NCBI GenBank assembly: GCA_902768125.1 | Contig: CACXKA010000003.1 | Location: 1-64,000, forward strand | Direction: 5' to 3' | From: an uncultured Bacteroidales bacterium | GTDB lineage: Bacteria > Bacteroidota > Bacteroidia > Bacteroidales > Bacteroidaceae | DNA: 64,000 nt | Shown: piece by piece, positions 1,981 to 32,961 of the stretch | How positions within the stretch are numbered: the first letter of the stretch is position 1 | Layout of the letters: each line of letters starts with the position of its first letter | The notes under the pieces: generated by a model | What the model was told of the DNA's origin: nothing | The model's database searches: none | What the model saw: the letters and a program-made list of their open reading frames with translations, nothing else | Made by a program: the position numbers and the translations under genes

Positions 1981-2214
1981 ACCTAACAACCTAACATTCG
2001 TTCTCAAATGAGTTGTGGTTCAGAGAGTTGCCTATGTTAGGTCTCACGCAGAGACCTAACATAGACCTAACACTCACTTCATCAGGCAGCAGTCAGAGGG
2101 ATATCTTTGTGAGATTAAAATGTTAGGTTAATGTTAGGTCTTGTTTATAGACCTAACATGCGAATGTAGTTGATATACAGACAAATGCGAGCAAAATGTT
2201 AGGTTGTTAGGTCT
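1981..2214. repeat. repeat module with CCTAACA words and two strong hairpins
   Basis: Outer arms 1981-2013 and 2180-2214 are inverted copies (CCTAACAACCTAACATT against AATGTTAGGTTGTTAGG). Between them lie two hairpins made of the same word: CTATGTTAGGTCTC, 5-base loop, exact complement (2032-2064), and ATGTTAGGTCT, 7-base loop, exact complement (2131-2159). About ten copies of the word occur, in both orientations. No reading frame is credible. A TATCTTTG at 2102-2109 could be a -7 box. Confidence 0.75.
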
Positions 2215-2399
2215 TTTTGCAAAAACACTCTCTTTCCCAAGAAAAACTTCCTGATTGCCCTTCCAATTTTTGCTCCCCCACGGGAGAGATTTTGCGCCCC
2301 CGTTAGGAAAATATTTTTCTCTAACTAGGCAGCAAAAATTGTTTCCCCCTAAGGAAAAATTTTGCAGCCCCTAGGGGTAACAAAAAATACCCCTCAAAA

Positions 2400-2690
2400 A
2401 TTGCCGACGGCAATCCTACCTTTTGCCGTCGGCAAAACGATGCTTTGCCGCCGCCTCTTTCAATCGATGCTGTCGGAGGCGTTTTTGTGGAGTCCAGAGG
2501 GTACACTTGCAACCTCCTCGTAGTAACAAGTGTAGGCTCGGGGAGGGTGCAAATGTGGTGCAAGGCGAACGCAAAGGCAAGCTTGCTTAGACTTTGCTGA
2601 GCCGAAGCCCACACTCGCTGTGGCAACTGTAGGTTCGACGGGCAATTATTCGCAATGCAACCCTCACTTTTTGTGTTGAGAGGAGGCATT
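2400..2690. other. GC-rich structured non-coding segment, possible RNA
   Basis: This stands out from the AT-rich surroundings. TTGCCGACGGCAA (2400-2412) is an inverted partner of TTGCCGTCGGCAA (2423-2435). TACACTTG (2502-2509) pairs with CAAGTGTA (2527-2534). Further short stems exist, such as GCAAAG...CTTTGC and CCACA...TGTGG. Long open frames on the minus strand have unlikely composition and are judged spurious. The stretch 2276-2400 before it has C-run/T-run words such as TTTTGCGCCCCC and CCCCTAGGGG. No promoter is convincing. It could be a structured RNA, or merely repeat debris. Confidence 0.4.
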
Positions 2691-2930
2691 TGACAACAAA
2701 AACCCCTCCAAATAAGGTGTTGAGAGTGTTTTTTTGATAAGTTTTTGTGTATGGAAAGTGGCAAGGATGGTATCAAAACTAAGTGTTTTTATCTGTTTTT
2801 AACCTCAAAAGAGCCTGTTTTTGATGAATTCTGTCCCTTTTCTAAGGTTTGGCATCATAGGAACAGAGGGCTTTATAATATCGTATGTCATTGATTTACT
2901 GATTATTAAATAAAACTTGTTCTGGCAAAA

Positions 2931-3095
2931 TCTATCACTTTCAGTTCTATCAGTTAGTTTTCGAAGTGGTGTCAATTTTATCTTATTATTATATAACTTA
3001 TTAATTATTAATTAGTTATATATTATAATATAGGGAAATTTGATACATAACAGACCCATTGAAAGCTAACTGAAACTGATAGAACTGATAGATTT
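2931..3095. repeat. iteron-like module A (CTATCAGTT words around an AT-rich core)
   Basis: Left arm 2931-2962 and right arm 3061-3094 are inverted and each is built from CAGTT words about 9-10 bp apart (TTCAGTTCTATCAGTTAG against CTAACTGAAACTGATAG). They flank an AT-only core at about 2980-3032 that is itself an imperfect palindrome. Short inner elements (GGTGTC on the left, TAGGGAAATT on the right) recur in modules B and C. Confidence 0.75.
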
Positions 3096-3172
3096 GTCTT
3101 GGTTGTAGGAGTTGGCTAATTTTGTATGTTATTGTTTTATAGCCTTTTAGGAGAATTGTGGATTAGAAAAGC

Positions 3173-3328
3173 GTTTCAGTTTCAGTTGTTTCAGTTATTT
3201 TTTGAGGGGTGTCGCTCCCCTTTATTTATTATATAACTTATTAATTATTAATTAATTATATAGTTTAAGGAAGGGGGGATACACAACTGTACCTCAAAAT
3301 CCTAACTGAAACTGAAACAACTGAAACA
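3173..3328. repeat. iteron-like module B (TTTCAGTT words around an AT-rich core)
   Basis: Arms 3173-3205 (GTTTCAGTTTCAGTTGTTTC) and 3292-3328 (CTGAAACTGAAACAACTGAA) are inverted. The core at 3226-3262 is nearly identical to that of module A (2986-3022), differing at about one position over 36, while the arm words differ. A GGGG-GTGTCG-CTCCCC hairpin sits inside the left arm. Confidence 0.75.
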
Positions 3329-3360
3329 CTTTGGTCGTGATGATTTCTTCTCTACAAGGC

Positions 3361-3441
3361 TTATTTCCCAATAACCTGCCTCTACTGAATAATAAGCGTA
3401 CCTTATTGAGCAATAAGGGATGGTTATTGGAGAATAAGGAG
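3361..3441. repeat. module with AATAAGG words
   Basis: Repeated CAATAACC, AATAAGC, CCTTATT, CAATAAGGG, GTTATTGG and AATAAGGA. It includes a perfect hairpin CCTTATT-GAGC-AATAAGG at 3401-3418. It sits between modules B and C and follows the same design, but has no AT core. Confidence 0.6.
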
Positions 3442-3486
3442 TCTCTGTCAAGGAGAATCCTTTTGTTTGCTTTGTAGATAATAATT

Positions 3487-3668
3487 CTTTTCAGTTTCTT
3501 CAGTTCCTCAGTTACTTCAGTTGTTTTCGAGGGTATAACAATTCCCTTATTCTATTATATATATATTTATAATATATTGATTATTAAGTATATATAATAT
3601 ATAAATAGGGAAAATAAGAGAATGCGTGACATTTAAAAACTGAACTGAAGAACTGAAGAACTGAAGTA
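3487..3668. repeat. iteron-like module C (CTTCAGTT words around an AT-rich core)
   Basis: The left arm 3487-3528 holds four CAGTT words 8-9 bp apart. The right arm 3636-3668 holds CTGAACTGAAGAACTGAAG in the opposite sense. The core 3550-3606 is almost pure A+T. CCCTTA before the core pairs with TAGGG after it, as in modules A and B. Confidence 0.75.
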
Positions 3669-3747
3669 AGGCCTCATTTCTTTACTTGGCTAATCTTCTA
3701 TTGCAATAGCCCTTCCTTATTTCAGGAAAACTAACACCCTCATGCTG

Positions 3748-3775
3748 TAACGTACCAGCGTACCAACGTACCATT
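3748..3775. repeat. CGTACCA short direct repeats
   Basis: Three CGTACC words 8-9 bp apart (ACGTACCAGCGTACCAACGT then ACC). It looks like a single arm of the same module design with yet another word; no inverted partner is visible nearby. Confidence 0.55.
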
Positions 3776-3824: not shown

Positions 3825-3850
3825 GTTATATGTAAAAAATTGCTGAAAAA

Positions 3851-3882
3851 TTTGGTTGTGTTGTGTTTTTGATATACCTTTG
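3851..3882 (+). promoter_or_regulatory. promoter for structured leader RNA and methyltransferase operon
   Basis: TTTG at 3851-3854 and TACCTTTG at 3875-3882, 20 bases apart. It lies in a 40-base near-copy of the toxin-antitoxin promoter. Transcription should begin near 3889, about 280 bases before the methyltransferase ATG. Confidence 0.75.
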
Positions 3883-3887
3883 CAACT

Positions 3888-4116
3888 AATCGCTGGCAAA
3901 TACCTCAGCGGAGGTGCTGGCGTGACATAGTAGTAAATAACAAGCGTTTGCTTTTATTCGGAATTGTCCTAAGAATCTCGCAAATTCAAAAAGTAACAAA
4001 AACCGAAGAATAAGTTGCAAGCGTCTGTGCGTTAAGCATGGGCGTGACTTATCTGGTTTTTGTAGGCATGCGAGAGCCTTTAGGACATGGATGGGAATAT
4101 CGTCCATGTCTTTTTG
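3888..4116 (+). ncRNA. structured RNA / long leader in front of the methyltransferase
   Basis: This is a stretch of about 228 bases between a good promoter and a terminator-like hairpin, with nested complementary segments. ACCTC-AGCG-GAGGT (3902-3915) is a local hairpin. TCCTAAGAATCTCGCA (3967-3982) pairs at both ends with TGCGAGAGCCTTTAGGA (4069-4085). Inside that, ACAAAAACC...AGAATAAG pairs with CTTATCT...GGTTTTTGT around 3994-4063. No convincing protein frame is present. It could be an independent small RNA, an attenuating leader or a riboswitch. I cannot assign it to a known family, and a covariance-model search is needed. Confidence 0.6.
4084..4115 (+). terminator. intrinsic terminator or attenuator in the leader
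   Basis: GACATGGATG pairs with CGTCCATGTC (one G-T pair) across a 7-base loop and is followed directly by TTTTT. It lies 54 bases before the methyltransferase start, so read-through at this site would set methyltransferase and nuclease levels. Confidence 0.7.
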
Positions 4117-4168: not shown

Positions 4169-5299
4169 ATGGCTAAAAGAAACTTGGATGCTGCTAAAAC
4201 TGCGAAAAAAGATGAATTTTACACGCAGTTAACAGACATTGAAAGGGAATTGCAACACTACTGGTCTCATTTTCGTGACAAGGTGGTGCTGTGTAATTGT
4301 GATGACCCTTACGAGAGTAATTTCTTTAAGTACTTTGCCCTCCGTTTCAATCAGTTGGGTTTGAAAAAACTGATTTGTACTTGCTATAATGGTTCGCCAG
4401 TGCAAGGTAATGAGTTGTTGCTTCGCTTTGAGCCTTGGGATGATGAAGCTGACGTTAAGAAAAAAGCATATAAGGTGGAGATAACGGAGGTGAAAGACAT
4501 GAATGGGGATGGAGCGGTTGACTTGTCAGATGTACGAATCTTATTGCAGAATGATAAAAATGTTCTTTCCACTTTGCAAACTGGTGATTTCCGTGACCCT
4601 GAATGCATTGAGCTATTGAAAGAAGCAGACATTGTGGTTACTAATCCTCCTTTTTCTTTGTTTAGAGAGTATATTGGGCAGTTGATGGAATATGAGAAAA
4701 AGTTTATTATAGTAGGACATCAAAATGCAATCACGTACAAAGAAGTATTTCCATTATTAAAGGAGAATAAAGTATGGCTGGGGTATGGATTTAAAGGTGG
4801 AGCAGCACACTTTTTCTCTCCATACGAGGACATTGCTACAGCTGGAGACCACAAAAAAGACATGATTCGTGTTTCAGGTGTAAACTGGTTTACCAATCTT
4901 GAAATTCCCAAACGGAATGAGGAGATAGATTTGGTTTGTAAATATTCTCCTGAAAACTATCCCACTTATGATAATTATGATGCAATTGAAGTTAGTAAAA
5001 CCGCTGAAATACCATACGATTATGCAGGAATAATGGGTGTTCCCATCACCTTTATGGACAAATACAATCCACTACAATTTGAAATAGTAACGTTGGGGAT
5101 AGGTGAAGGGAACTTTACGCCTAAAAAGAAATATGAAAAATTTAGAAACCCGGATACAAAGGAATTCATTTCAGATAAACGTGACTTCCTTTTATATGTT
5201 AGAAAACCTAATGGGAAATATCTAACATCTGAAGGATATAGACTTGATAAAGTATATGCTCGAATCCTAATCCGCAACAAACATCCCAAAGCTTTATGA
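4169..5299 (+). CDS. EcoRI-family adenine-specific DNA methyltransferase
   Basis: 376 residues. CNCDDPYES at 42-50 matches the cofactor-binding segment of the M.EcoRI family, and VVTNPPF (NPPF 159-162) is the catalytic motif of N6-adenine methyltransferases. The family transfers a methyl group from S-adenosylmethionine to adenine in a short DNA site; the site cannot be predicted here. A segment at 111-130 (MNGDGAVDLSDVRILL) appears to be an insertion between these motifs. It overlaps the next gene by four bases (ATGA), so the two are probably made together as modification plus restriction. The long leader suggests control before translation. Confidence 0.88.
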   Translation: MAKRNLDAAKTAKKDEFYTQLTDIERELQHYWSHFRDKVVLCNCDDPYESNFFKYFALRFNQLGLKKLICTCYNGSPVQGNELLLRFEPWDDEADVKKKAYKVEITEVKDMNGDGAVDLSDVRILLQNDKNVLSTLQTGDFRDPECIELLKEADIVVTNPPFSLFREYIGQLMEYEKKFIIVGHQNAITYKEVFPLLKENKVWLGYGFKGGAAHFFSPYEDIATAGDHKKDMIRVSGVNWFTNLEIPKRNEEIDLVCKYSPENYPTYDNYDAIEVSKTAEIPYDYAGIMGVPITFMDKYNPLQFEIVTLGIGEGNFTPKKKYEKFRNPDTKEFISDKRDFLLYVRKPNGKYLTSEGYRLDKVYARILIRNKHPKAL

Positions 5300-6420
5300 T
5301 GACAATAAAAAGAATAGAAGTGACCGTGGGTGAAATCACTCGTGGTTATGTGAACAACGACGAACTGGGTGTTCGTGGTTATGACGGGAAATTGGACATC
5401 CGTCCACCCTATCAGCGTGAGTTCATCTACAGCGAGAAAGAGCAGCAGGCGGTCATCAATACAGTGCTGAACGGCTATCCGCTGAACGTGATGTATTGGG
5501 TGAAGAGAAGCGAGGATGCTGAATGCCCTTACGAGGTGATGGATGGTCAGCAGAGGACACTCTCGCTGTGTGAGTATGTGGATGGAAAATTTGCCATCGA
5601 CTTCAAGAACTTCTTCAACCAGCCAGAGGACATCCAAAAGAAGATTCTCAATTATCCCCTGACCATCTATGTGTGTGAGGGTGAGGCTTCAGAGAAACTG
5701 GAGTGGTTCAAGACCATCAACATTGCAGGCAAGCCGCTGAATGAGCAGGAAATCAACAACGCCATCTATGCAGGTCCATTTGTGAGCGATGCCAAGCGTC
5801 ATTTCTCCAAGTCAAATTGTGGTGCCTATCGTCTGGGCAAGGATTTGGTGAACGGCACGCCCATCCGTCAGGACTTTCTGAAGAAGGCTTTGGAGTGGAT
5901 GGCTGACCATGAGACTCGCTCGGGCAAGCGGCAGTCGGTGGTGGGCTATATGGCAGAGCATCAGCATGACCCCAACGCCAACAATCTTTGGTCATATTTC
6001 CAGACGGTGCTGAACTGGGCTATCACCAACTTCGACATGAAGAAGTTCAAGAAGATCATGAAGGGGTTGGATTGGGCTTTGCTGTATGACAAGTACGGTT
6101 CAGAAACACTTGACACCACCGCTCTGGGACAACGCATATCGGCATTGATGCGTGACAGCGAGATTCAGAAACAGGTGGGCATCATCCCCTATGTGCTGAC
6201 AGGCGATGAACACTACCTCGACCTTCGGGCATTCCCTGAGGACATCAAATTGGCTGTGTGGGAACAGCAGAAGCATATCTGCCCTATTTGTGGCAAGGAG
6301 TTTGACTATGAATTCATGGAAGGTGACCACATCACTCCTTGGCGTGAAGGTGGGCGAACGGTCATTGAGAACTGCCAGATGCTTTGCAGGGAATGCAACA
6401 GGAGAAAAGGCAGCAAATAG
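5296..6420 (+). CDS. DUF262 (GmrSD/ParB-like) and HNH nuclease fusion
   Basis: 374 residues. The N-terminal DUF262 domain has the diagnostic IRPPYQREF (36-44) and DGQQRT (83-88), features of the GmrS/ParB-like nucleotide-using fold of type IV-like restriction enzymes. The C-terminus is a complete HNH nuclease: CPIC (329-332), DH (344-345), N359, then CREC (364-367) and N368, with four Cys for a structural zinc. Coupled to the EcoRI-like methyltransferase by an ATGA overlap, it is best read as the restriction partner that cuts DNA lacking the partner's methylation. Modification-dependent cutting is an alternative, as for GmrSD. Base composition is closer to the core genome than that of the helicase downstream. 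Confidence 0.87.
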   Translation: MMTIKRIEVTVGEITRGYVNNDELGVRGYDGKLDIRPPYQREFIYSEKEQQAVINTVLNGYPLNVMYWVKRSEDAECPYEVMDGQQRTLSLCEYVDGKFAIDFKNFFNQPEDIQKKILNYPLTIYVCEGEASEKLEWFKTINIAGKPLNEQEINNAIYAGPFVSDAKRHFSKSNCGAYRLGKDLVNGTPIRQDFLKKALEWMADHETRSGKRQSVVGYMAEHQHDPNANNLWSYFQTVLNWAITNFDMKKFKKIMKGLDWALLYDKYGSETLDTTALGQRISALMRDSEIQKQVGIIPYVLTGDEHYLDLRAFPEDIKLAVWEQQKHICPICGKEFDYEFMEGDHITPWREGGRTVIENCQMLCRECNRRKGSK

Positions 6421-10237: not shown

Positions 10238-10446
10238 GGGAGAAAGACAGTCAAAGGTCTAAAGTCAAAGGCTGTAACGGTTAAAGGTTAACGGTTAAAG
10301 GTTAAAGAACCATGCGGGACGTTCGTTAACCGATAACCGCTGAACGCTAAACGAAATAGGGGAGGCTCCTTCTTGTTTTCCCATATTTCATTCATAGAAA
10401 AGTGGTATCTTTGCAAACGAAAAGGAAAGAATGAAAAAGAATAAGA
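10225..10446 (+). repeat. promoter-bearing direct repeat, left copy (R2)
   Basis: About 222 bases, with GTAACGGTTAAAGG words, ACCATGCGGGACGTTCGTTA, GGGGAGGCTCCT and the -7 box TATCTTTG (10406-10413). It is nearly identical to 12395-12652, so the AlbA_2 gene and the debris behind it are bracketed. Confidence 0.85.
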
Positions 10447-12024: not shown

Positions 12025-12034
12025 GACAAGCTTT

Positions 12035-12138
12035 GTCTTTAAGAATGTCTTTAAGAATGTCTTTAAGAATGTCTTTAAGAATGTCTTTAAGAATGTCTTT
12101 AAGAATGTCTTTAAGAATGTCTTTAAGAATGTCTTTAA
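12035..12138. repeat. 12-bp tandem repeat, 8.7 copies (GTCTTTAAGAAT)
   Basis: Eight exact units and an 8-base partial unit start 11 bases after the AlbA_2 gene stop. Each unit contains the dyad TCTTTAAGA. The unit length is a multiple of three, so copy changes would not shift a frame. A small frame reading MSLRMSLR... passes through it but is probably accidental. Confidence 0.95.
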
Positions 12139-12394: not shown

Positions 12395-12652
12395 GTTTAC
12401 AGTTTAAGGGTTAAGGTAGAAAGACAGTCAAAGTTCAAGGTTCAAAGCTGTAACGGTTAAAGGTTAACGGTTAAAGGTTAAAGAACCATGCGGGACGTTC
12501 GTTAACCGATAACCGCTGAACGCTAAACGAAATAGGGGAGGCTCCTACATGAAAACAATTGTTTCATGTGATATTTTCTTGTTTTCCCATATTTCATTCA
12601 TAGAAAAGTGGTATCTTTGCAAACGAAAAGGAAAGAATGAAAAAGAATAAGA
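12395..12652 (+). repeat. promoter-bearing direct repeat, right copy (R2)
   Basis: Nearly identical to 10225-10446, but with an extra segment of about 31 bases after GAGGCTCCT that contains the near-palindrome ACATGAAAACAATTGTTTCATGT-like dyad (ATGAAA...TTTCAT around AACAATTG). It has its own TATCTTTG (12612-12619), placed for the BRO-N gene. Confidence 0.85.
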
Positions 12653-32916: not shown

Positions 32917-32957
32917 TTCTTTAACCCTTAACCTTTAACCTATAACCTTTAACCGTT
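32917..32957. repeat. TTTAACC repeat between infC and rpmI
   Basis: AACCCTTAACCTTTAACCTA and further TAACCTTTAACC words, about 7-10 bp apart. The same word family occurs at 1848-1945, 10260-10310 and 12450-12480. Here it sits inside an essential operon. Confidence 0.7.
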
Positions 32958-32961
32958 ACCA

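Follow-up and report, generated by a model that had tools for sequence, protein, structure and literature searches.

Three iteron modules near the start of the stretch of uncultured Bacteroidales DNA analyzed here (64,000 nucleotides, contig CACXKA010000003.1; the window) are probably replication origins of a family of integrated Bacteroidales elements whose genes have since decayed, the iterons being read by protein A, which intact relatives encode directly beside the origin. Modules A, B, and D lie between 1.98 and 3.78 kb of the window, together with one half-module, one array, and one dispersed repeat; each of the three has an AT-rich core flanked by inverted arms in which short words are repeated. 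The evidence comes from synteny, the equality of the two arms, covariation of word and protein, prediction of held-out loci, and the predicted fold of protein A; from these we infer binding, melting, priming, replication, facing assemblies, and self-specificity. A first-pass annotation had described six modules of changing words and suggested an array of origin-like or protein-bound sites with diversified words, laid out like the origins of staphylococcal pathogenicity islands (SaPIs). For modules A, B, and D this idea is strongly supported, because their intact relatives adjoin a helicase-like gene whose helix covaries with the word. It does not extend to all six: AATAAGG belongs to a dispersed repeat, CGTACCA to a half-module, and the CCTAACA words lack an AT-rich core.

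An intact cassette around the module

A DNA search with positions 2900 to 3300 of the window gave 13 matches on six contigs of its own genome (G000), self and inverted self included. Positions 2900 to 3360 matched in 14 of 41 genomes, G000 included. In G008, G017, and G005 (loci L028, L029, and L030), the module lies between two co-directional genes, the small gene B and gene A. The order of the cassette is gene B, module, gene A, gene C; some loci continue with genes for a small protein and for an HU-HIG protein. Gene C is DnaG-like, with a CHC2 zinc finger (PF01807, E 1.9e-13 in L028) and a match to PHROG DNA primase (E 5e-22). The structure predicted for protein B, with a predicted local distance difference test score of 76.6, resembled no PDB entry at E 0.001.

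In the GTDB collection, 144 candidate stretches yielded 98 relatives of gene A, and at E 1e-100 the gene occurs in 31 of 301 sampled genomes of the window's family. The hosts of the 80 gene A loci that were kept carry Prevotella, Prevotellaceae, Bacteroidaceae, and other Bacteroidales or Bacteroidetes names, with one Candidatus Minthosoma. Eight of these loci were left unused, namely, L106 and seven in which gene A is cut (L111, L135, L144, L145, L147, L150, and L153). Gene clustering over 72 loci, some of them cut by contig ends, recovered gene A in 71, gene C in 67, and gene B in 51 of them.

In 78 loci selected through gene A, each arm carries three 6-bp iterons, usually spaced by 9 and 6 bp, and the arms stand in opposite orientation around an AT-rich imperfect palindrome. 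Comparison with these intact loci indicates that the functional word is 6 bp long with a TG start (TGATAG, TGAAAC, TGAAG, and so on); the words of the first-pass annotation were rightly seen as repeated, and as inverted in modules A, B, and D, but their unit was not this one. By manual count, with two doubtful readings omitted, there are 22 words across this set and the held-out set described below, the commonest in the 78 loci being TGGAAC (27), TGTAAC (12), and TGAAAC (7). Left- and right-arm words, estimated independently, agree in 67/76 loci, compared with a mean of 12.6 and a maximum of 23 after shuffling.

The inner distance between the arms, read in 75 loci, is 103 to 106 bp in 57, 114 to 116 bp in 8, and 124 to 126 bp in 7, with 98, 112, and 128 bp once each. 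These steps approximate one helical turn and would thus suit proteins on the same face of the DNA, which we regard as supporting but not decisive, since the loci share descent and held-out loci are looser. Gene A begins 41 to 59 bp downstream of the last iteron in each of the 76 loci that were read automatically and about 112 bp downstream of it in L126. The script mis-scored L126 and L142, which were resolved by a re-scan (L126) and by eye; both are omitted from the counts of arm equality and inner distance, the latter also omitting L083 with its shortened core.

A like-built module at L044:323-485 (G000:C22), near a TGGAAT module and a gene A fragment, has three inverted words per arm, 8+8 spacing, an inner distance of 119, and an AT-rich middle, and its word, AAAGTA/TACTTT, has no TG start. 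It may belong to a second initiator class.

Protein A and the iteron word

The predicted model of protein A has an MCM AAA+ fold over residues 16 to 372. Its secondary structure past this point fits a winged helix, a region into which the structural matches barely extend. K80 is invariant in 70 protein A sequences within SGxNKGQL, a degenerate form of the putative Walker A motif. The best structural matches in a viral library were the DUF3987 helicases of phages and mobile elements, and the model places protein A structurally among the relatives of DUF3987/MCM-type helicases. The VirE- or primase-type partner suggested by the first-pass annotation was thus close, in that such a relative is followed by a primase gene, but the reader of the words appears to be protein A. 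A PDB sequence search with protein A gave a single match, at E 0.045, which is not credible.

When corrected for overall similarity, local similarity tracked word similarity in one stretch of protein A, at its C-terminal end (partial r −0.58, sd 0.13). Neither gene B nor gene C gave a comparable signal as a word reader (best −0.10 and −0.24). Among 433 columns, residue 408 was the best for iteron base 3 (1.17 of 1.45 bits) and residue 407 for base 6 (0.99 of 1.25 bits). In 34 independent pairs taken from the tree of the rest of protein A, these were again the best columns, at 11/12 versus 1/22 for base 3 with residue 408 and 10/11 versus 2/23 for base 6 with residue 407; a weaker link between base 4 and residue 411 also emerged.

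The rule that follows assigns base 6 from residue 407 (R or K to C; Y to G; A, N, or S to T) and base 3 from residue 408 (K to G; Q or H to T; V or L to A). It was built on 68 loci, excluding those with a broken or short gene A frame such as L148 and L152 (split in two frames), and agrees with 64 and 63 of these. For L126, L142, and L121, the word had been assigned manually (re-scan, by eye, and commoner first letter, respectively). With the rule fixed and proteins not used before, the first reading of held-out loci gave 16/17 and 17/21. A wider helix search pattern then added nine loci, after which base 3 was correct in 24/26 and base 6 in 23/30 (permutation P 0.0005 and 1e-5), some of these loci being close relatives of one another and hence not all independent. 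Of 48 held-out candidates, 18 were dropped: nine training duplicates, three cut at the start, one with short upstream DNA, two repeats of the same locus, and three without a readable helix. Covariation of the word with the predicted recognition helix and the predicted fold support the view that the C-terminal domain of protein A sets iteron specificity.

Other candidate readers were considered. A search of 151 genomes for a standalone or nuclease-fused winged helix, like those of the phage-inducible chromosomal island-like elements (PLEs) and Odn, returned mostly protein A and its long relatives; other matching frames include ones of 76 (G046:C19), 121 (G118:C8), and 458 (G130:C67) amino acids. 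The words were also considered as marks of these longer relatives (about 760 amino acids, 25 to 31% identity), but no module was found at the gene start in L063, L064, L069, and L073, a reading that covers 4 of 13 loci, nor by strict scan of five larger stretches (L205 to L209).

In the mechanism that we envisage, protein A, as an MCM-like AAA+ helicase, would bind the TGNNNN iterons through the recognition helix of its C-terminal winged helix, and three iterons in each of two opposed arms would seat two protein A assemblies face to face across the AT-rich core. The core would melt, whereupon the product of gene C would prime. Protein A and its own origin would change together, so that words differ and each element starts only itself. 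Conceivably, word diversity is driven by a pressure like that proposed for the phage nuclease acting on PLEs or by incompatibility between co-resident elements.

Several observations weigh against an origin read by protein A. Three copies of protein A had no Pfam (including DUF3987) or PHROG match at E 0.05, and an NCBIfam search with them gave only a weak portal match for one copy. The Toprim match of gene C is weak and below the Pfam cut-off. Viral contig, phage, and plasmid collections gave no match to gene A; inspection by eye of the gene clusters that recur in the 72 loci brought up no integrase, nor was one present in the 25 Pfam rows shown per side for sampled upstream (95 families) and downstream (168 families) genes. 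Spacing is looser in the divergent held-out loci, with 21 of 33 distinct loci in the three bands by manual count, and modules A and B themselves measure 118 and 113, compared with bands of 103 to 106, 114 to 116, and 124 to 126. The two bases often change together, base 6 with residue 408 reaching 9/11 versus 3/23 and base 3 with residue 404 reaching 11/12 versus 6/22. The code misses in L085, L107, L112, L127, L132, and L134 of the sample and in the held-out loci L053, L058, L179, L185, L189, L191, and L192; three of the held-out misses carry the word TGAGAC, and their same-helix relatives have TGAGAT or both.

Finally, the module could be the operator of gene A, also or instead. The last iteron lies where an operator could be, iteron initiators often autoregulate, and protein A might bind the module to repress or time its own transcription without starting replication. 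We consider such an exclusive role rather improbable. Two symmetric arms about 105 bp apart around a conserved AT-rich palindrome fit an origin better, protein A is predicted to be an MCM-fold helicase beside a primase, and operator and origin functions can coexist.

Orphan modules and decay in the window

Not all modules are accompanied by genes. A search of 45 genomes of the genus for exact inner-iteron pairs of two words gave 19 places (10 for TGAAAC and 9 for TGGAAC, one of the latter, G046:C48, without an AT-rich core). An intact gene A lies beside three of them (G005:C52, G059:C3, and G017:C22) and a gene A fragment beside another three (G044:C2, G053:C62, and G001:C39). A reversed-pattern control gave 3 and 2 forward matches, so that other long inverted repeats of such spacing do exist.

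The 16 of 19 places without an intact gene A, the dispersal of copies over six contigs of G000 (13 matches), and the near-palindromic arms are what one would expect of a passive palindromic repeat of the miniature inverted-repeat transposable element (MITE) or enterobacterial repetitive intergenic consensus (ERIC) type, its arms equalized by template switching or slippage and its words replaced without a reader protein. A repeat mutating by word replacement had indeed been offered as the alternative in the first-pass annotation. It is very unlikely for modules A, B, and D, since the word changes with two residues of protein A, both throughout the family and among held-out loci. Moreover, iteron spacing is mirrored in just 40/76 loci and unmirrored in 14/76, which template switching would not yield. 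The 78 loci in which the module lies directly upstream of gene A likewise supply the linked protein family that a passive MITE, ERIC, or repetitive extragenic palindromic (REP) repeat lacks, even though orphans exist too. Least probable of all is an RNA hairpin that would serve between genes B and A as an attenuator or a site of processing, for which a long imperfect palindrome between co-directional genes would be apt, given that a minority of arms are unmirrored, that the spacing bands approximate a turn of DNA, and that the word covaries with the helix of a winged-helix domain.

Returning to the origin interpretation, some orphan modules appear to be constrained. Between the window and a copy of module A in G006, none of 73 iteron and core positions has changed, compared with 77/358 in the rest (P 1.6e-7) and 9/81 in the inter-arm spacer alone (P 0.003); the copy at G000:C4, in the same genome, gave 0/73 versus 35/353 (P 0.002). 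A copy on C21 with the word of module B differs from module A at 9/36 iteron, 3/37 core, and 82/211 left-flank sites. Unchanged iterons and cores beside changed flanks suggest that some orphans have been constrained after gene decay or copied anew from constrained sources. Possibly, they are maintained by copying in trans from intact elements with a matching word, or the host may keep them as decoys that titrate incoming initiators. A full picture of a code-reading MCM-like helicase, two facing rings on a palindromic origin, and gene-less orphan origins under selection is offered as a tentative proposal that may well not hold in its entirety.

In the window (Table 1), the sequence left of module A reads as a decayed gene A start and that right of module B as a decayed gene B end, so that the earlier statement that no replication gene lies beside the modules does not hold for A and B. 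In the G000:C4 copy, the stretch beside the module is still weakly protein A-like (G000:C4:111397-111507, E 6.2e-4). No intact close copy of gene A was found in the window's genome, which is 89.7% complete, the best being a 156-residue fragment on C22. A strict module scan of the window detected module B, once, but no module in any of 20 locally shuffled versions, which is more than chance would give; modules A and D, whose arms mix words, escaped the scan. The inner distance of module D is 126 (3519 to 3646) or 121 (to 3641), and intact L058, with the same word class, has 126. The cores of A and B are near-identical to each other, as had been noted, but the cores described as AT-only are more exactly AT-rich: their best 36-base windows hold 34 to 35 A/T, and AT-only runs of at least 24 bases are found just in B (25 bases) and D (26 bases).

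Table 1. Features of the window discussed in the text
Feature	Position	Strand	Remarks
TGTTAGG/CCTAACA words, ten	1982–2211		Both orientations; no AT-rich core
Putative decayed 5' part of gene A (initiator helicase) of module A	2720–2915	−	Aligned with G000:C4 copy
Module A, left arm (TGATAG, TGAAAG, TGATAG)	2932–2952	−	Iterons 2932–2937, 2938–2943, 2947–2952; same in two other copies
Module A, core (AT-rich imperfect palindrome)	2986–3022		0/37 changes in each of two copies
Module A, right arm (TGAAAC, TGATAG, TGATAG)	3071–3091	+	Iterons 3071–3076, 3077–3082, 3086–3091; inner distance 118
Probable remnant of leader and first codons, second gene A copy, of module B	3121–3160	−	Read against intact leaders
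Module B, left arm (three TGAAAC)	3173–3193	−	Iterons 3173–3178, 3179–3184, 3188–3193
Module B, core (AT-rich)	3226–3262		
Module B, right arm (three TGAAAC)	3307–3327	+	Iterons 3307–3312, 3313–3318, 3322–3327; inner distance 113
Probable gene B end remnant (GCCTTGTAGAGAA)	3333–3362	−	Read against intact loci
AATAAGG array	3360–3438		Separate dispersed repeat, outside origin
Module D, left arm (four TGAAG-type words)	3488–3519	−	Two exact
Module D, core (AT-rich)	3547–3602		
Module D, right arm (four related words)	3641–3666	+	Three exact TGAAG
Lone arm (three TGGTAC; CGTACCA word)	3752–3773	−	No partner arm
EcoRI-type adenine methyltransferase	4169–5299	+	Like gene, same orientation, beyond gene B in intact L028
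GmrSD_N/HNH protein, likely restriction partner	5296–6420	+	Like gene after methyltransferase in L028

Other repeats of the window are of different kinds. The TGTTAGG/CCTAACA array has five copies per orientation in paired and inverted order, and close CCTAACA pairs occur nowhere else in the genome assembly. AATAAGG was set aside as part of an origin: the core string of its repeat, CCTGCCTCTGCTGA, occurs at 15 places in the genome, only about three of them near modules, and in some cases the repeat comes immediately behind the gene B remnant; the copy in the window differs from this string at one base. A perfect tandem repeat of TGTCTTTAAGAA (8.8 copies, 12034 to 12138) lies just past a Schlafen/AlbA_2 gene, and arrays of 7/14-bp units (CCTATAACCGTTAA, TAACGGTTAAAGGT, and CTTTAAC) at 1844 to 1940, 10253 to 10307, 12433 to 12483, and 32919 to 32958 are unlike the iteron modules. 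A 43-nucleotide near-repeat (88%) at 1203 to 1245 and 3847 to 3889, which we take to resemble a Bacteroidales promoter, precedes a gene pair with a weak RelE-like match and the methyltransferase, respectively.

With the methyltransferase and GmrSD/HNH pair beside the modules, as in L028, the window looks like an element of this family that has lost its replication genes and kept its restriction genes. In a sample that omits seven near-duplicate loci, upstream genes (121 of 157) are rich in restriction-modification families (Pfam N6_Mtase, 6; Eco57I, 4; HsdM_N, 3; Methylase_S, 3; RloB, 2; EcoRI methylase, 1; one protein may count in several rows), whereas none of these is present in the 25 rows shown of 168 families for downstream genes (117 of 125). 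Likewise, the top upstream PADLOC rows are methyltransferases and mad2 (4 to 7 members each), downstream families having at most 2 members; one DEAD helicase on the downstream side nevertheless had matches to 32 models. Clusters 3 (17 loci), 6 (11 loci), and 9 (7 loci) of the 72 loci lie downstream of gene C and comprise HU-like proteins and a 72-amino-acid protein that presumably resembles DUF4248; HU-HIG (PF18291) is found in 4 of the 117 downstream genes. Loci L139 and L141 have their flanks and the B-origin-A-C block in common and differ in between. Blocks of gene B, origin, and gene A with 92 to 98% identity end near the end of gene A in L109/L116, L091/L098, and L096/L098 and run on in L139/L141, which hints at exchange of this block between elements. 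In seven of the 72 loci (cluster 8; e.g., L146, L085, and L082), a gene labeled by eye as resembling a REP-associated Y1 transposase lies a few kilobases from the cassette.

Relation to known replicons

The closest parallels come from staphylococcal elements. As excerpted from PMC7581432, SaPI Rep and Cch2 of the staphylococcal cassette chromosome (SCC) recognize short iterons through their C-terminal domains, that of SCCmec Cch2 binding a putative origin with three short iterons, AAGTG; deletion of inverted repeats did not matter for Cch2 binding in these experiments. The SaPI Rep-ori system and the Bacteroidales cassette would have in common an initiator helicase with an iteron-recognizing C-terminal domain, here proposed from covariation and the predicted fold, an adjacent origin, and a nearby primase, and the modules share the layout, though only the layout, of iterons flanking an AT-rich stretch. 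They differ in that the origin lies upstream and not downstream of the helicase gene, that there are usually three inverted 6-bp iterons per arm, that the hosts are Bacteroidales, and that no integrase or helper-phage genes were noticed; the SaPI Rep sequence was compared through PDB and family searches only. With SCCmec Cch/Cch2 (PMC5862659 cites a title that describes Cch as MCM-like), the cassette shares an MCM-like or D5-type helicase, a partner priming protein, and short iterons, as far as the excerpted accounts go, but its primase is DnaG-like and not CCPol-MP. DUF3987 is a predicted helicase of mobile elements in the same excerpt (PMC5862659), and these helicases give the best structural matches of protein A, yet the Pfam model does not match it.

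Covariation of initiator and origin has a precedent in the PLEs of Vibrio cholerae, where, in the excerpt of PMC8263062, the origin and the initiator's DNA-binding domain vary in concert and are swapped as a module, an origin-directed phage nuclease that mimics the initiator being the proposed selective force. The excerpt of PMC7145576 describes PLE RepA as a RepA_N initiator and predicts no helicase or primase activity for it. PLEs have two specificity groups; here there are some 20 words, at single-residue resolution. The covariation of protein A and word can also be likened to that of the iteron-related domain of geminivirus Rep, a rolling-circle initiator of plant viruses that is unrelated to protein A: in these viruses, too, iteron words and a short initiator stretch change together.

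We found no description of the B-origin-A-C cassette or of its code in the openly licensed literature. Partnership and diversification of initiator and origin have been described for a few replicons, for the most part with whole domains as the unit. The family described here amounts to a natural experiment of about 20 words and 98 proteins (some near-duplicates), in which two residues explain most of two base positions, and this opens the code, incompatibility, and escape from origin-targeting attack to direct tests. Part of the window's tandem field would be explained as a graveyard of origins, and the Bacteroidales, major bacteria of gut and rumen, gain a candidate MCM-type replicon, often beside restriction systems.
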